A DNA stretch of 26,794 nucleotides, taken from the IMG/VR virus record IMGVR_UViG_3300048921_000314, positions 1 through 26,794 of that record; one strand, written 5' to 3'. The stretch comes from a virus. The notes under the pieces were generated by a model. It did no database searches. It saw only the letters and a list, made by a program, of their open reading frames with translations, and was not told where the DNA came from. Both the position numbers and the translations under genes were made by a program. How positions within the stretch are numbered: position 1 is the stretch's first letter; each line of letters starts with the position of its first letter. Positions 18,162 to 26,794 of the stretch are shown piece by piece.

Positions 18162-18862
18162 AACTGCACAAGGTACTGACGATCGGCGGCACCCCGTACC
18201 CGCTGGTTAAGGATGAAGTTCGGCTGGACATCAAAAGCCCCGGCCGGGCGACCTTCACCATCCAGGCAGGCGCCGCAGTCAAAGGCCTGGTGATGCTCGA
18301 TGTCGGTTACAACGACGGCCCGCTGCAGCGCCACTTCATTGGCTTTGTTGAACGCTCTACGGCAATTAACAGCGTGCAGCAGATCCTGGTCTGCCGCGAA
18401 CTGGCGGCGATCCTGTCGCAGCCGATGCCGTTGAACCTGCGACACGTCGACGTGCAGGGCGTGCTGGCCGAGGTCAGCGACAAGACCGGCCTGCGTTTCC
18501 GGGTGCCGGATAAGGCCTACGCCAAGGTCAAGGCCCCGTTTTTCTACAGCCTGGCCGCCGGCTACCTGGCGATGGACAGCCTGGCCAGCGTATTCAGCAT
18601 CCCCGACTTTATCTGGCAGCAGCAGGGCGACGGCGAAGTGTTTGTGGGCAGTTGGGCCGACAGCTTCTTCGGGATCCGCCCGCCGCTGCAGCTGCCGGTC
18701 GAACTGTTCGACGGCTACCAGGGTAACCAAAGCGCACTGATCGCCGCCCTTCCAGGACTACGACCAGGTGCAACTATCAACCAGGGCGAGAGGATCACCA
18801 GCGTGACCCTTGCCGGCAACCAAATGGCGATCAAATGGACGACGCAATCCGTCGCAGTGTAG
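18158..18862 (+). CDS. D: Baseplate hub protein, P2 gpD-like
   Basis: Hub protein on the tail tube tip that carries the spike. It has 234 residues, shorter than P2 gpD (387). Beta-rich N-terminal sequence (VLTIGGTPYPLVKDEVRLDIKSP) fits the hub fold, followed by CRELAAILSQPMPLNLRHVDVQGVLAEVSDKTGLRFRVP, resembling the SVQDVL..ia...g segment of gpD/Mu gp44-type hubs. The start overlaps the preceding gene by 4 nt and the end overlaps the spike gene by 28 nt. Confidence 0.75.
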   Translation: MKLHKVLTIGGTPYPLVKDEVRLDIKSPGRATFTIQAGAAVKGLVMLDVGYNDGPLQRHFIGFVERSTAINSVQQILVCRELAAILSQPMPLNLRHVDVQGVLAEVSDKTGLRFRVPDKAYAKVKAPFFYSLAAGYLAMDSLASVFSIPDFIWQQQGDGEVFVGSWADSFFGIRPPLQLPVELFDGYQGNQSALIAALPGLRPGATINQGERITSVTLAGNQMAIKWTTQSVAV

Positions 18863-19812
18863 AGCGGCAATTCCCCGAACTCACCGGCGGCTACCACCTG
18901 CCACGTTTTGGCCGAGTGGTGGCCGTGCCAGATGCGCCGGCATCACCTGGTCTGTGCGACGACTTTCGGCCGCGCTTCGGCGTTGACGTGGAAGTGTTGC
19001 TGCCCGATGGCGAGCCAGATCCGGCGCTGCCGATCCTGACCGGCTTACCGCTGCCGGCACCGATGGGCGGGCAAGAGGCGGGCATGTTTGGCTTCCCGGA
19101 AGAGGGCACCACAGTGGTGGTCAGCTTTGCCTATGGTCTGCCACATAAGCCCTTTATCACACAGATCCTGCCCCACGGCCTGAGCCTGCCCCGGGTGCCG
19201 AAGGGGGACCAGGTGTGGCAGCACAGCGAGGCCTGCCAGCAGCGCGTTGACGCCGATGGCAACTGGCTGCGCCAAACCGACGGCAAGATCCAGGATAAGG
19301 CGATCGAACGGGAAGTGGAGGCGATGCAGAACACTGAGAGCTTCCAGAGCCACACCAGGACGGTGGATGATCATTCCACCGAGTCTGTGGGTGGGATCAA
19401 GAAGATTGAGGCGCTGGGCGCGCTCAAGCTACTTTCGGGCGGATCTGCGAGTTTGGTGGCGGTCGATGACCTGCACCAGGCGACCGGGCGCGACTTGAAC
19501 CTGGTGGTGGGGCAGAAGCACAACGCCACCGTGGGCGGGGATATGGAGGAAAGGATTCAAGGTTTACGTCTAAGCGTGGCGGGTATGAACCAGCAGTTGT
19601 TGGCGCCGAAGAATTGGATAGGGTCCGAAACTGTAAACCTGTTCCAAGTGGTGTGCGATATGCTCAACTTGCTGCAGACAATGAACACACAGCTTGCCGT
19701 CCACACTCACTTGCCTGGACCAGCACCTAATCCCGCAGATGCAGCCGCATTTTCAAGTCAAGCGATTGCAGCGACGACCCTTTTCATGAAATTAAAGCCT
19801 GTCACGATGTAG
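18835..19812 (+). CDS. V: Baseplate spike (cell-puncturing) protein, P2 gpV-like
   Basis: Trimeric spike at the tail tip that pierces the outer membrane. It has 325 residues. The N-terminal OB-fold-type part runs through HLPRFGRVVAVPD, CDDFRPRFGVDVEVLLPDGEPD and the GGQEAGMFGFPEEGTTVVVSF segment (the usual spike/VgrG pattern). The middle has repeats suited to a beta-helix (ALGALKLLSGGSASLVAVDD, RDLNLVVGQKHNATVGGDM). Near the C-terminus, AVHTHLPGP gives an HxH motif like the iron-binding apex of gpV-type spikes. The start is inside the hub gene's last codons. It is the last recognisable phage structural gene. Confidence 0.82.
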   Translation: MDDAIRRSVERQFPELTGGYHLPRFGRVVAVPDAPASPGLCDDFRPRFGVDVEVLLPDGEPDPALPILTGLPLPAPMGGQEAGMFGFPEEGTTVVVSFAYGLPHKPFITQILPHGLSLPRVPKGDQVWQHSEACQQRVDADGNWLRQTDGKIQDKAIEREVEAMQNTESFQSHTRTVDDHSTESVGGIKKIEALGALKLLSGGSASLVAVDDLHQATGRDLNLVVGQKHNATVGGDMEERIQGLRLSVAGMNQQLLAPKNWIGSETVNLFQVVCDMLNLLQTMNTQLAVHTHLPGPAPNPADAAAFSSQAIAATTLFMKLKPVTM

Positions 19813-19911
19813 GAGCGAGGACCATATACTTTCCCGCCTTAAAAGAAGTTTCGTCTCTCATGTTTGGTAGTATACGGAACCTACGCCACCTAGCCCGCTA
19901 AGGAGATGCAT

Positions 19912-21330
19912 ATGGAAATGTTCGGGGATGAGAATATAAATCTTGATAAGGATTATGAGTTTAGGGTGTCTGTTAAAGGCTCCGTTGGCAGTTTCTCGGC
20001 TGTTTTGAAGCTATTTCAAAATGAGATTAGTATAAGGATTAGTGGCGATCAAGTAGGACTGCGCATGTGGGGTGGCACTAAGTGGGAACTAGAATCTTTA
20101 GAGTGTGAAGGTATCGGTTGGTATTGCGTTTTGTTTGATCTGCACTGTATTAAAAGTGGAAGCTTTGCCATCGGTGACATGCTGGGCACTGCTATGCATT
20201 TTGAGGTCGAATACACTGCAAAGTATGCAGTAATAAGCCGGCAGAAAGTTGTAAATATGGATTTTCGTAGTATCCACCTGTATTCACCAAGTCTTGCTAA
20301 ATGGGTGGGTTACACAGAGAAGCAACAGGAGATAATTGAAGACCAAGTGAGCGGGTCGAGAGTCGGGCTCGTTTCGAATTTTGACTATTTTGATACAACT
20401 GAATTTTGTATGGTTGATGAGGACGGAGGTCAGATAGCTCTAAATTATAATATCAAAGCTAGCGCGTCTCCCTTCGAATTCGAAGTTGGAATTCGTTTTC
20501 CACTGTCTTTCAGTGTATTTAAAAATGGCCAAATACAACCTAAGGATAGCCTGGCACTGTATCAAAAATGCTACTCGCTGTTAAGCCTTCTTCATGGGCA
20601 AGAACTGGTTATGGATCGAATTGAGCTGTGGGAAGGCGATGTGAGAAATGGTGAGGCATTTATTTATTATCCAAAGCCAGAGCCATCTTCGAATGATTAT
20701 ATGTCATACAGTTGGTACCCCCTAGGGCATCAATTACGTTTCAATGACTTAGGCTTATCAGCCTTTCCGCTCGAATCAATAAGTAAATATTTCTCAGAAA
20801 GCTATGAGTTATCAGAAAAGTGGTCAAAATATTTGAAGTACAGGAGGATGAGTAATGTTGAAGAAAGATTTCTAGGGTACTTTAGGTTGCTTGAGTCATT
20901 GACTAAGACATCAAAGTCATTTTTGGACCCTGAGCTTTTGAGTCAGCAAGTTAAACGGGTCGAGAAGTTAATGGTCAAGATTTTCGGTGGTGGAAAGGAA
21001 GTCAAAAACTTTCTTCGCGGTATAGCTCGGTACAATAACTCTAAATATAACACTGAAAAATGCATGATTGATTTTTATAAAAAAATCCCAACAAAGGTTG
21101 TTGACGCTTGGTGTCTAAAGCAGGACGCTATTAAAGCGATCTGTAAGTTGCGAAACGATATCAGTCATGCGAATGATTATTTTGAAACTAATGAAGATTT
21201 TTTAGCTAAAATTGCTTTTGTTGAGTCTTTGCTGGTAGTGTCTTTACTTGAGACTGTAGGCGTGCCTATCTCAACATCTTCCAGTTTGATATACAGATTG
21301 CCAGGTGCACATAACTTAGTTGGTCAGTAG
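19912..21330 (+). CDS. HEPN-domain protein resembling ApeA abortive-infection proteins
   Basis: Candidate anti-phage protein. The ATG at 19912 is 6 nt after AAGGAG; an ATG at 19906 abuts that ribosome site and is less likely. It gives 472 residues. The N-terminal half is beta-rich, with IHLYSPSLAKWVGYTE near residues 122-137, reminiscent of ApeA N-terminal domains. The C-terminal half is helical, has VEERFLGYFRLLESL, and ends with the HEPN RNase motif RNDISH (Arg414-x4-His419) in KAICKLRNDISHAN. HEPN proteins with this motif often cut RNA when phage infection is sensed. It is far AT-richer than the tail genes upstream, a sign of recent transfer. Family membership by eye is good for HEPN, moderate for ApeA. 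Confidence 0.72.
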   Translation: MEMFGDENINLDKDYEFRVSVKGSVGSFSAVLKLFQNEISIRISGDQVGLRMWGGTKWELESLECEGIGWYCVLFDLHCIKSGSFAIGDMLGTAMHFEVEYTAKYAVISRQKVVNMDFRSIHLYSPSLAKWVGYTEKQQEIIEDQVSGSRVGLVSNFDYFDTTEFCMVDEDGGQIALNYNIKASASPFEFEVGIRFPLSFSVFKNGQIQPKDSLALYQKCYSLLSLLHGQELVMDRIELWEGDVRNGEAFIYYPKPEPSSNDYMSYSWYPLGHQLRFNDLGLSAFPLESISKYFSESYELSEKWSKYLKYRRMSNVEERFLGYFRLLESLTKTSKSFLDPELLSQQVKRVEKLMVKIFGGGKEVKNFLRGIARYNNSKYNTEKCMIDFYKKIPTKVVDAWCLKQDAIKAICKLRNDISHANDYFETNEDFLAKIAFVESLLVVSLLETVGVPISTSSSLIYRLPGAHNLVGQ

Positions 21331-21363
21331 ATTGTAATTAAACGCTAGCAGAGAAGAAGTGCA

Positions 21364-21390
21364 TGCATTTCCTGCATTTCCTGCATTTCC
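21364..21390. repeat. Short tandem repeat, three copies of TGCATTTCC
   Basis: Three perfect head-to-tail 9-nt units lie just after the HEPN gene stop. They are in an apparently non-coding gap and would encode HFL repeats if translated. No function is apparent, and the copy number could vary by slippage. Confidence 0.85.
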
Positions 21391-21393
21391 TGT

Positions 21394-21690
21394 TTACTCT
21401 AAACGACACCACCAAGACTGCGCATAAGCGCACCCATCAACATATTCAATGCCGCTCAGCACGAAACCGTTTGGGGCCATTCCGGACAAGTTCGCGTCGA
21501 GCAGTTGAGGCAGTGGGTCAGGCTCCAATGGCATCCCCTTCGATACCCTCGCTACATTTGAGCTCCGGCCAAGCTCGTTGCTTGTCGCGGGTGCTACAAG
21601 TACGTCACCCCTAATTGCCGGATAACACCTTCTTTCTTGTGGGGCCAAGGCCACACCCTTGCAGCGCATCGGGGTCACTAGCATGTGCAT
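21394..21690 (-). CDS. Small hypothetical protein, second gene of LexA-boxed operon
   Basis: The 98-residue form starts at the ATG at 21690, with GAGGGTGA just upstream; a GTG three codons earlier at 21699 is possible. The sequence MHMLVTPMRCKGVALAPQER is followed by an RGDVLVAPATSNELGRSSNV stretch that may be a small beta-barrel-like domain. The C-terminus ends YAQSWWCRLE. It begins only a few bases after the upstream gene's stop, so the two are an operon. Similar proteins seem familiar from Pseudomonas genomes, but I cannot name a function. Confidence 0.6.
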   Translation of the reverse strand: MHMLVTPMRCKGVALAPQERRCYPAIRGDVLVAPATSNELGRSSNVARVSKGMPLEPDPLPQLLDANLSGMAPNGFVLSGIEYVDGCAYAQSWWCRLE

Positions 21691-21702
21691 GATAGTCACC
21701 CT

Positions 21703-21945
21703 CTAGTAGTCGGTTGGTTCATCTAAGAGCGCCTCTACGGCGTACGCCAGCGCTCCATCTGCTTGCTCAAGTAGATCAGCGAGATCATCACGGCCAATCA
21801 GCTGTGCTCTATGCAGCGCGTATGCCCCGTCTATGAGCTTTTTATGGTGTGCTCCTGGGTGACGCAGCAAGGCCGCTTCATCTCGCAGAAGCTCTAACCA
21901 GGAAGAGGTCACCCTGTTCTCGGTGAAGTGACTTGCATTCGTCAT
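21703..21945 (-). CDS. Small hypothetical protein, first gene of LexA-boxed operon
   Basis: An 80-residue acidic, mostly helical protein starting MTNASHFTENRVTSSWLELL. It contains LRDEAALLRHPGAHHKKLIDGAYALHRAQLIGRDDLADLLEQADGAL in sequence order, a run with alternating helices and a possible DNA- or protein-binding surface. An AGAGG lies about 7 nt before the ATG. A strong LexA box sits about 31 bp upstream, so expression should rise under DNA damage. With prophage induction also tied to SOS, the pair could affect induction or survival; no function is claimed. Confidence 0.65.
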   Translation of the reverse strand: MTNASHFTENRVTSSWLELLRDEAALLRHPGAHHKKLIDGAYALHRAQLIGRDDLADLLEQADGALAYAVEALLDEPTDY

Positions 21946-21973
21946 TGCATCGCCTCTGCTCGCTTGTTACGGG

Positions 21974-21993
21974 CGCTGTATATGCAGACAGTA
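21974..21993 (-). promoter_or_regulatory. LexA (SOS) box upstream of the two-gene operon
   Basis: On the minus strand the site reads TACTGTCTGCATATACAGCG. It has both CTGT and ACAG half-sites with exactly 8 nt between them, matching the gamma-proteobacterial LexA consensus, with an AT-rich side. A TATACT just upstream could be the -10 element. The box lies about 31 bp before the first gene of the operon, so LexA would block that promoter. Confidence 0.78.
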
Positions 21994-22523
21994 TATTGCG
22001 CCGCCTGGCTCGCTAAGCGGTGATCCGACGAAGTGCAGCCCCGGCGGCAAACCAAATTTGTGGCAGCAAGAAAAAACTGTACGGAAAAGCACTTATCCCC
22101 CTCCCGCCGACGGGGTATGCGCCCTTTTTTTGTGCAAATCCAAGTGTAGTGAAAACGTACCCAATGCCCAGGCTGGCAGGACGGCGCTATAGATGATCGG
22201 CAATTTCACAGATTGTAAGATTTGGAAGAAATGTGCAGCGCGGCTGCACAGCAGTTCATCAAGCGGTTACAAACGGCACACCTCTGAATACCTTGGTTTC
22301 ATTGGGTCCGAGCTATTGAAAGGATTCGAATACGGGGTTTTTCGAAAACCTGAGCTATCCTTTTAGACTGAAATTGGCTGTGCTACTGGTAGCAGCTAAA
22401 TTGAGTTCAAGCCCCGTGCAAGCTGGGTTGGAAGGAATTCGGGCATTTCACAACATTGCCGACAGGGGCGTCGATGTTACTGACAGTCCACCTCAAAAAT
22501 TGTTTGCAAGGGAATGCTATTTT
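21994..22523. other. Gene-free stretch with small inverted repeats
   Basis: About 530 nt without a credible reading frame on either strand. It contains a perfect 8+8 palindrome (22232-22250), a smaller GGTTTT/AAAACC hairpin (22336-22350), and a run of seven T's (22125-22131) after GC-rich sequence that might be a weak terminator. It separates the LexA-boxed operon from the DUF5677-like gene. I see no RNA gene that I can name. Confidence 0.6.
22232..22250. repeat. Perfect inverted repeat TGTGCAGC-GCG-GCTGCACA
   Basis: Eight-base arms are exact inverted copies around a 3-nt centre. No T-run follows, so a terminator is unlikely; a regulator binding site or an RNA hairpin is possible. It lies about 275 bp downstream of the DUF5677-like gene's stop in that gene's direction. 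Confidence 0.6.
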
Positions 22524-23315
22524 TCAATAATTCTTCGGTAAAGCATCGAAATCGGTAAGGATCTTATTAAAATCATCATTGTATTGTTCGAATTTAAGTA
22601 CCTCTGCTACACCTATAAGGATCGGGTTCATAGCGTAGAGAGCGTAGAAGAGCGTCTTCGCGATTTCTGATGGTGGGCCAGCACCAATCTTGTACTCCCA
22701 GTAAGCCCTTTCTTCGTAGGCGTTGACATGATGTTCGAGAGAGGAAGCTGAAACGTGACTTGATTCATCCGAAAGACATTGGTAGGCGTAATACTGAAAT
22801 TCCAACGGGCTCATTGACGCTAATGTTTTTGGACTTATCAGGTCGAGTGATTTACTTAGACTTTCGATTGCTTCTTGTAGAGCCTTTCGCTCGCCCGGGG
22901 TCTTGGCGTGACCTTGATTTTGAAGTGTTTGGAATCGATTCCTACGACTTTTGAGATGGTCGTCTCTAAGCATTTGTATGTATTTTGACTGAGCAGAGGT
23001 GAGTGCGCCCACGCTGAAACTTACCTCAAGAAGAGATCGTGCCATGATTCGACCTTCGACGTGCATTCCTCTCTGTGCCATCAGGAGGGCGCCTTGGTAA
23101 ATCCCAGCAGCTCGAAGGAGTAAGCGAACAGCGATAGCCTCCGCAGACCATGAAGTGGCATGCACCTTGTCTAAGGCTTCTTGCATAATCCTCATAGTTA
23201 GCAGATTTGTAGATTTAGCCAAAGAAAACCAATCAGCATTAGCTTCTACAATCGCCTCACAAGCAGAATCAAGCTCACTGCCCAAAAAACCAGCGGGTGG
23301 TACTTTCCAGTTCAT
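22524..23315 (-). CDS. DUF5677-like protein
   Basis: A 263-residue helical protein, starting MNWKVPPAGFLGSELDSACE. It shows the pattern known for DUF5677: ARSLLEVSFSVGAL near residues 92-105 (R-x3-E), and YQCLSDESSHVSASSLEHHV later (a 'yr.LS...H' segment). These features suggest a HEPN-like all-helical fold, though no RX4-6H motif is evident. It has no signal peptide or membrane segment. It is transcribed leftward, in the same direction as the zinc-ribbon gene about 166 nt upstream, and a C10A7 homopolymer lies between them. Function is unknown; accessory island location suggests a defence or stress role. Confidence 0.68.
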   Translation of the reverse strand: MNWKVPPAGFLGSELDSACEAIVEANADWFSLAKSTNLLTMRIMQEALDKVHATSWSAEAIAVRLLLRAAGIYQGALLMAQRGMHVEGRIMARSLLEVSFSVGALTSAQSKYIQMLRDDHLKSRRNRFQTLQNQGHAKTPGERKALQEAIESLSKSLDLISPKTLASMSPLEFQYYAYQCLSDESSHVSASSLEHHVNAYEERAYWEYKIGAGPPSEIAKTLFYALYAMNPILIGVAEVLKFEQYNDDFNKILTDFDALPKNY

Positions 23316-23481: not shown

Positions 23482-24360
23482 TCAAGTTTGCTTATCTTTT
23501 GGGGCGAGTAATCTAGAAATAGCGTGTGTTAGTTCTGCTTCATCCTTGAGTGCTTGTGACAAACGTTCCGACAGCTCCCCTAAAACAACCCGTACGCTAG
23601 CGGCATAACCGAGACAGTCTTCATCTGACATGTTATGGATTCCATCACTCAATGCGTTGTGTAGGAGCTTTAAAGGATTGTGGCCATTCACTAATAAGCT
23701 TTCAGGCATGGCGGGTTTTGCAATCTCTAATGCTTTTGTAAATTGAGTTTCTGCAATCGCCGTATCTAATATTGCTATGTTTTCTTTAGAGGCGCCGAGA
23801 CGTTCAAGAACCTTTATGATTTCTTTGAGGATTCTATTTTTTTGACTTTCAACTACTCGTCGATAATATACAAAAGCGCCAACTCCTAATCCTTGGTTTT
23901 CACACCTTCTTCCTTTCAAAAAGGTATCTCTGTCTGGTCCTATTAGTTTTAGTAGTCGTGCGGGTGTAGGCGGGCCAAATATTGGTGTCTCGCCAAATTT
24001 GTACAAGCTACCGAACTCGTCATCTTCGCTCCTGGTAGCCGTGACTGAATAAGTCTTTACAGATTTTTGGCAGTTCGCGCATCTATATTTTAAAAAAACG
24101 TCTTTGGATTCGTTAAAAGATAAATGTAAGTTAAAACCTGTAACGCAACGGAAAAAACGGACGCCATTACACGTCTCGTTTGAACAGTGAAGCTGGATCT
24201 CCGGAGTCTTCAGAAATTCCCCGCTTGGCGAATTCCCAACGCGTTTGGACATCATGAGGTCTGAAATGAGGATCAGTTGGTTCGGTGGGGACGATTCGAG
24301 GAATTCTGCAAATGTTTGCTTGTCTGGTTCAGCCACTGATTCTGGAGCATTGACGGTCAT
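23482..24360 (-). CDS. Zinc-ribbon protein with HEPN-like C-terminal region
   Basis: A 292-residue protein starting MTVNAPESVAEPDKQTFAEF. A zinc-ribbon-like module has Cys59-x4-Cys64 and Cys94-x2-Cys97, with Cys72 between. The C-terminal 140 residues are helical and contain LLHNALSDGIHNMSDEDCLGY, an 'LSxGIH' signature seen in HEPN-like or DUF4145-like proteins, without the Arg of the RX4-6H RNase motif. AT-rich base use again differs from the phage tail genes. It may form a unit with the DUF5677-like gene downstream. Function is unknown; nucleic acid binding through the ribbon is inference. Confidence 0.65.
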   Translation of the reverse strand: MTVNAPESVAEPDKQTFAEFLESSPPNQLILISDLMMSKRVGNSPSGEFLKTPEIQLHCSNETCNGVRFFRCVTGFNLHLSFNESKDVFLKYRCANCQKSVKTYSVTATRSEDDEFGSLYKFGETPIFGPPTPARLLKLIGPDRDTFLKGRRCENQGLGVGAFVYYRRVVESQKNRILKEIIKVLERLGASKENIAILDTAIAETQFTKALEIAKPAMPESLLVNGHNPLKLLHNALSDGIHNMSDEDCLGYAASVRVVLGELSERLSQALKDEAELTHAISRLLAPKDKQT

Positions 24361-25704: not shown

Positions 25705-26794
25705 ATGGGTCAGGCAAGTAGTCAGGCAGCAGGTGCCGAGCATTCCAACGCAAAGCCGATCGGCATGCTGGTGGCAGCGGTCGGGGTGGTTTACGGCGAT
25801 ATCGGTACCAGCCCGCTCTATACCCTCAAAGAGGTGTTCAACGGTGGTTATGGGGTGCAGGTCAACCATGACGGTGTGCTGGGGATCCTGGCGCTGATCT
25901 TCTGGTCGTTGATCTGGGTGGTGTCGATCAAGTACATGCTGTTCGTGCTGCGCGCCGATAACCAGGGCGAAGGCGGCATCATGGCCCTGACCGCGTTGGC
26001 GCGAAGGGCGGCGGGGGAGCGCAAGAAGTTGCGCAGTTTCCTCGTGGTGTGCGGCCTGTGCGGTGCGGCGCTGTTCTATGGCGACAGCATGATTACCCCG
26101 GCGATTTCGGTGCTGTCGGCCATTGAAGGCCTGGAACTTGCGTTCGACGGCCTGGAAAAATGGGTGGTGCCGATCGCCCTGGTGGTGCTGGTGGCGCTGT
26201 TCCTGATCCAGAAGCACGGTACCGACCGCATCGGCAAGTTGTTCGGGCCGGTGATGGTGACCTGGTTCCTGGTATTGGGTGCTCTCGGTGTGTATGGCAT
26301 TACCCTGCACCCTGAAGTGCTCAATGCCTTGAACCCGATGTGGGGCGTGCGTTTCTTCGAGGCCCACCCTGGCATTGGCGTGGCAATCCTCGGTGCGGTA
26401 GTGCTGGCGTTGACCGGTGCCGAGGCGCTGTATGCCGACATGGGCCACTTCGGCCGCAAGCCCATCGCCCGCGCCTGGTTCATCCTGGTGTTGCCGGCGC
26501 TGGTGCTCAACTATTTCGGCCAGGGCGCCATGCTGCTGGGCGACCCGGAAGCCGCACGCAACCCGTTCTACCTGTTGGCGCCGAGTTGGGCGCTGATCCC
26601 GCTGGTGGTGTTGTCCACCCTGGCCACGGTGATTGCGTCCCAGGCGGTGATCTCCGGTGCGTTCTCGTTGACGCGCCAGGCGATCCAGTTGGGTTATATC
26701 CCGCGTATGCATATCCAGCACACCTCAAGCGCCGAACAGGGCCAGATCTATATCGGTGCCGTGAACTGGTCGCTGATGGTCGGCGTGATCCTGC
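25705..26794 (+). CDS. kup: Low-affinity potassium transporter Kup (3' end outside window)
   Basis: Kup (TrkD) family potassium uptake permease of the inner membrane, a proton-coupled K+ importer. The ATG at 25705 has AGGAG 6 nt upstream and starts [20 protein letters not shown]. The family signature [19 protein letters not shown] follows in the first membrane segment, then the [20 protein letters not shown] loop, [20 protein letters not shown], and [20 protein letters not shown]. The frame stays open for 363 codons to the window edge; Kup is usually about 620-640 residues. Its codon use is host-like, so it marks the chromosome to the right of the prophage and cargo. Confidence 0.95.

Follow-up and report, generated by a model that had tools for sequence, protein, structure and literature searches.

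A divergent ApeA-type HEPN protein in a cargo slot behind the tail genes of a Pseudomonas P2-like prophage

We analysed a 26,794-nt stretch of viral DNA (IMG/VR virus record IMGVR_UViG_3300048921_000314; hereafter the window) and found that it encodes a protein with the two domains and the active-site residues of the ApeA family. At a probability of roughly 0.8, we read it as a stand-alone abortive-infection protein of the ApeA type, a putative defence RNase whose gene is lysogenic cargo of a Pseudomonas Peduoviridae prophage. The gene occupies a slot with fixed borders and highly variable cargo, in which diverged ApeA alleles recur. The gene itself is ordinary and the slot mildly interesting.

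An intact AT-rich gene follows the tail genes of a P2-like prophage

The initial annotation placed the gene in a P2-like prophage, an assignment that holds at the family level. The Peduoviridae phage UFJF_PfPro shares 92% protein identity with the window in the terminase, 83% in the capsid and 79% in the sheath, and the order of the head and tail genes matches both UFJF_PfPro and phi3 (Phitrevirus). At the position of the window's ApeA gene, UFJF_PfPro carries a glycosyltransferase gene. The right end of the window (25774-26794) resembles the host kup (potassium uptake) gene, and the record therefore passes the prophage end into the chromosome; judging from the sequence, the right end of the prophage probably lies between about 24.5 and 25.7 kb. 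Neither tRNA nor Rfam families were found in the window.

The features at the left side of the slot are as follows:
18835-19812, + strand: last tail gene, a baseplate/spike protein with a Phage_base_V domain (phrog_4011, 3.8e-140); left slot border
19900-19905, + strand: ribosome-binding site AAGGAG, read from the sequence, 6 nt 5′ of the ATG at 19912
19912-21330, + strand: ORF of the ApeA-type HEPN protein, 472 aa (PF18739, 5.9e-9; PF18862, 3.6e-8; AF2 pLDDT 83, pTM 0.81)

The ORF runs intact from its ATG (19912) to its stop codon (21330), and 99 bp separate its ATG from the spike stop codon. Among related prophages the spike protein is 66-92% identical, and its Phage_base_V match (6.5e-5) is slightly below the Pfam cut-off. 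GC content is ~0.63 in the tail genes versus ~0.40 at the ApeA-type gene, and GC at codon positions 1-3 is 0.66/0.43/0.71 in the spike gene and 0.46/0.34/0.39 in the ApeA-type gene, in agreement with the earlier description of an AT-rich gene directly behind the spike. A scan for a sigma-70-like promoter 5′ of the gene gave nothing above chance, and an alignment search 5′ of the ApeA alleles, where the upstream region is poorly conserved, yielded no shared promoter.

Both halves of the protein match ApeA domains

The domains were located by profile searches and structure models:
20122-20757, + strand: aa 71-282, stretch matching ApeA_NTD1, a beta-rich presumed sensor domain (Pfam; AF2 model)
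20872-21267, + strand: aa 321-452, all-helical HEPN_Apea domain (Pfam profile match; domain-only model)
21151-21168, + strand: aa 414-419, RNDISH, the presumed catalytic RxxxxH (R414, N415, H419; conserved in the alignment)

A Pfam profile search of the protein returned HEPN_Apea (PF18739) at residues 321-452 with 36.9 bits against a curated cut-off of 24.4 (E 5.9e-9), which upholds the HEPN RNase-type domain proposed initially. The RNDISH motif lies near the C-terminus, as had been noted, and on its own it carries little weight: shuffling the protein produces R[NDH]xxxH in 3% of cases and RxxxxH of any kind in 25%. Our alignment comprises 16 rows, 15 of which are full-length in the sense that they reach the RNDISH region, and R414, N415 and H419 are kept in all 15 of these, down to 23% identity. 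This conservation, together with the HEPN_Apea profile match, puts the motif well beyond chance. A further five residues (E317, L321, G322, R325 and E328) are invariant across all 16 rows. In HEPN domains, RxxxxH is the active-site centre of a metal-independent RNase, and its loss marks non-catalytic HEPN groups (PMC3710099).

Folded separately, the HEPN domain gave a model with pLDDT 89, the best structural neighbours of which are mostly HEPN proteins, including HEPN-MNT toxins (Z 5.9-6.5), HI0074 (5.7), Csm6 (4.8/4.1) and, weakly, HepS of the Salmonella Gifsy-1 prophage (PDB 9oij; 3.6). These Z values of 3.6-6.5 are below the level that is diagnostic for helical bundles, and a Foldseek search with the domain gave no E below 0.001. 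The structural neighbours are thus supportive of a HEPN fold and not decisive alone; it is the Pfam profile match, rather than the structure comparison, that carries the HEPN assignment.

The N-terminal half, which had seemed reminiscent of ApeA, does match the known domain. The Pfam search placed ApeA_NTD1 (PF18862) in the region of residues 1-260 that had been singled out initially; the match spans residues 71-282 with 33.7 bits against a curated cut-off of 25.5 (E 3.6e-8). The full-length AF2 model (pLDDT 83, pTM 0.81) is beta-rich up to residue 208, with helices within residues 126-146, and continues into a helix spanning 210-228 and, at 287-462, a helical C-terminal domain. ApeA_NTD1 was named in 2013 as a domain of ~300 aa, consisting mainly of beta strands and fused to the ApeA HEPN domain (PMC3710099). 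Because the match starts early in two relatives (residues 17-253 and 14-217), we assign the early residues of the window protein to ApeA_NTD1 as well. Residues 18-111 find their best structural neighbours in Hcp and phage tail-tube barrels, with Z up to 7.3; such values are usual for common folds, and we do not read the resemblance as homology.

Divergent relatives recur behind the same spike gene

From its sequence, we take the window protein to be a divergent member of the known ApeA family. Its identity to most relatives found is 23-37%. Three plasmid proteins of Vibrio and Shewanella align over nearly their full length at 27-32% identity, and all three combine HEPN_Apea with ApeA_NTD1, as the window protein does. 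An ApeA protein is said to have been tested by Gao et al. in 2020. An alignment-based search added relatives in nine bacterial and nine viral loci.

Other searches returned little. Single-sequence scans of genome and viral contigs gave no relatives, tblastn of 50,697 phage records gave no match to the window protein, and phmmer and profile searches of PDB sequences produced chance matches only (coatomer, homeobox). There was no match in NCBIfam or PHROGs, and no E below 0.001 in full-length Foldseek searches of PDB and BFVD. The window protein did not match the ApeA-labelled PADLOC models at E up to 1; its relatives reach PADLOC Cas13-ApeA at about 0.001-0.009, values read here from models without a cut-off.

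Among 399 sampled Pseudomonas genomes, ApeA_NTD1 is present in 19 and a direct relative of the window protein in four. In three of these four the gene lies directly behind the same spike gene; the fourth has no spike gene within the 1.5 kb flank. Seven further records (L007, L016, L017, L085, L087, L118 and L120) carry ApeA alleles behind the spike gene, with 30-87% identity to the window protein. The closest, L016 (87% protein identity), has the same start and the same frame up to the contig end. The spread of these alleles indicates that ApeA has been carried, exchanged or diversified repeatedly in this slot.

ApeA relatives also occur at a different place in P2-like prophages. Those of Yersinia alsatica (L014) and of a viral contig (L021), 26-27% identical, lie ~3 kb from a terminase gene, near the position of the E. 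coli P2 cos-proximal hotspot.

The gene lies in a cargo slot with fixed borders

In the window the slot spans 19813-22067, between the spike gene and a 185-bp element, and related records (L025-L104) allow the same region to be compared. Its right side contains:
21394-21699, - strand: conserved small ORF at the right of the slot, 101 aa (98 aa from an inner ATG), 74% identical in L038
21703-21945, - strand: second conserved small ORF, 80 aa (phrog_6137, 1.1e-18)
22068-22252, no strand assigned: conserved 185-bp non-coding element, right slot border (64 of 78 records)

One or the other of the two small ORFs is present in 40 of 84 records. The 185-bp element contains two hairpins, is roughly 70-80% conserved across most related prophages and is possibly an att or transcription-end region. 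A second AT-rich cargo pair lies to the right of the slot, encoding a DUF5677 protein (22524-23315, - strand) and a phrog_25239 protein (23482-24360, - strand); DUF5677 was found twice among the slot cargo representatives too.

An IMG/VR search with the spike protein retrieved 80 related prophage pieces. Borders were counted in 78 records that have 1 kb or more of sequence downstream, including the window and the loci found through ApeA. Both borders are present in 64 of them, and 56 of these 64 slots are occupied, meaning that the spike gene and the element enclose an ORF of 150 aa or longer. The initial idea of cargo at a fixed site behind the tail genes thus fits the wider set of prophages. 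Occupied slots have a mean GC of 0.46, versus 0.63 for the 3 kb upstream.

Clustering of the slot ORFs of 150 aa or more gave about 61 protein clusters, an approximate number given near-duplicate records, mechanically called ORFs and the truncation at 2.5 kb of records without flank ORFs. ApeA is one of the two largest clusters. Matching of 57 cargo representatives to PADLOC and Pfam identified PtuA, AriA/AbiL, a type II REase, PDC-S25/S31, RloB, SIR2, DndB, GmrSD, DUF4238 and HEPN_LA2681, in addition to non-defence cargo (a glycosyltransferase, an acyltransferase and a Y-family polymerase). Ten representatives were also scanned singly, and five had a PADLOC match with E below 0.001, some of them weak. 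Many of the ~61 clusters have no recognised family. The slot thus shares the general pattern of P2-family defence hotspots, in which a wide choice of cargo genes, rich in defence functions, alternates between fixed borders. A 575-aa cargo protein in L032 (2130-3857, - strand) has a weak internal Cas13-ApeA match (1.1e-4) and may be a further HEPN protein of different architecture.

Proposed function and alternative explanations

We infer the following mode of action for the ApeA-type protein. The HEPN domain at the C-terminus would form a metal-independent RNase that is held inactive, probably as a dimer in which two RxxxxH motifs face each other. The beta-rich ApeA_NTD1 would sense a product of the infecting phage and release the RNase, which would then cut cellular RNA, most likely tRNA, so that growth of the cell halts before the second phage can multiply. 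Cleavage of tRNA has been described for another phage-activated HEPN effector (PMC13405049). On this reading the gene lies at a fixed site, bounded by the last tail gene and the right end of the prophage, at which related phages exchange defence genes.

The HEPN domain has HEPN-MNT toxins among its nearest structural neighbours, a resemblance that would suit a lone HEPN toxin acting to stabilise the prophage or to restrict superinfection by phages of the same kind, as opposed to a broad anti-phage system. We find this unlikely: the gene lacks an antitoxin-like companion, the next genes being small conserved phage ORFs on the opposite strand, the HEPN domain is joined, as in ApeA, to a large beta-rich domain on its N-terminal side, and anti-phage families are present in the slot. 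Slightly less probable again is that the gene is cargo without any effect on defence in its present host, its HEPN domain either binding RNA without catalysis or staying silent in the lysogen. The lack of an above-chance signal in the promoter scan is consistent with such a passenger, but R, N and H are intact, the frame is open and the closest allele, in L016, retains its start and its frame to the contig end. The RxxxxH motif, loss of which is the mark of non-catalytic groups (PMC3710099), is moreover retained.

The initial annotation suggested that a distinct N-terminus may mark a new sensor domain, which would make this a new type of HEPN protein. The protein is indeed divergent, at 27-37% identity to most relatives, and its first 70 residues are outside the Pfam match. 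We nevertheless consider this reading very improbable, as ApeA_NTD1 is matched above its cut-off at residues 71-282, the relatives are matched from residues 17 and 14, and the domain had been described as mostly beta as early as 2013 (PMC3710099). An ApeA-type abortive-infection protein remains our preferred reading.

The literature searched contained no description of the ApeA trigger. The search for it could well begin with the diverged ApeA alleles that occur naturally at a single fixed site in Pseudomonas prophages, and the slot offers candidate defence genes in compact form. We also found no description of a slot on the tail/attR side, in a limited search whose negative outcome is not proof of novelty. 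As a tentative proposal, which we hold at somewhat below even odds, the tail/attR-side slot of phi3-like Pseudomonas prophages may be an undescribed anti-phage hotspot, many of its unannotated cargo genes may be new defence systems, and ApeA may have diversified there to at least five alleles as its beta-rich N-terminus follows a phage trigger that changes fast. On this proposal a tail protein could be the trigger or a mimic of it, given the tail-tube/Hcp-like neighbours of residues 18-111, a likeness that may reflect no more than a common arrangement.

Comparison with known systems

Likeness to ApeA was judged on Pfam domain architecture. The window protein has both ApeA domains (PF18739 and PF18862) in the same order, an RxxxxH motif with a polar residue after the R, a beta-rich N-terminal and a helical C-terminal part, and is likewise encoded by a single gene. 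It differs in its modest scores (37 and 34 bits) and in its setting, a cargo slot of Pseudomonas Peduoviridae. HepS of the Gifsy-1 prophage (PDB 9oij) offers another example of a prophage-borne HEPN domain, without a sequence match to the window protein.

In E. coli P2-like phages, an anti-phage hotspot lies beside cos, between gpA and the portal gene gpQ, and other hotspots occur in Vibrionaceae and Bacillus prophages (Rousset et al. 2022, PMC9122126). Defence genes have also been reported in P. syringae Peduoviridae (PMC13182921). The Pseudomonas slot does not share the cos-adjacent location between A and Q: the E. coli hotspot is cos-proximal, whereas the slot lies at the tail/attR side, away from the portal and terminase genes. 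Both are nonetheless fixed sites in P2-family prophages with variable cargo and many defence families, and DUF4238 and SIR2 are common to the two.
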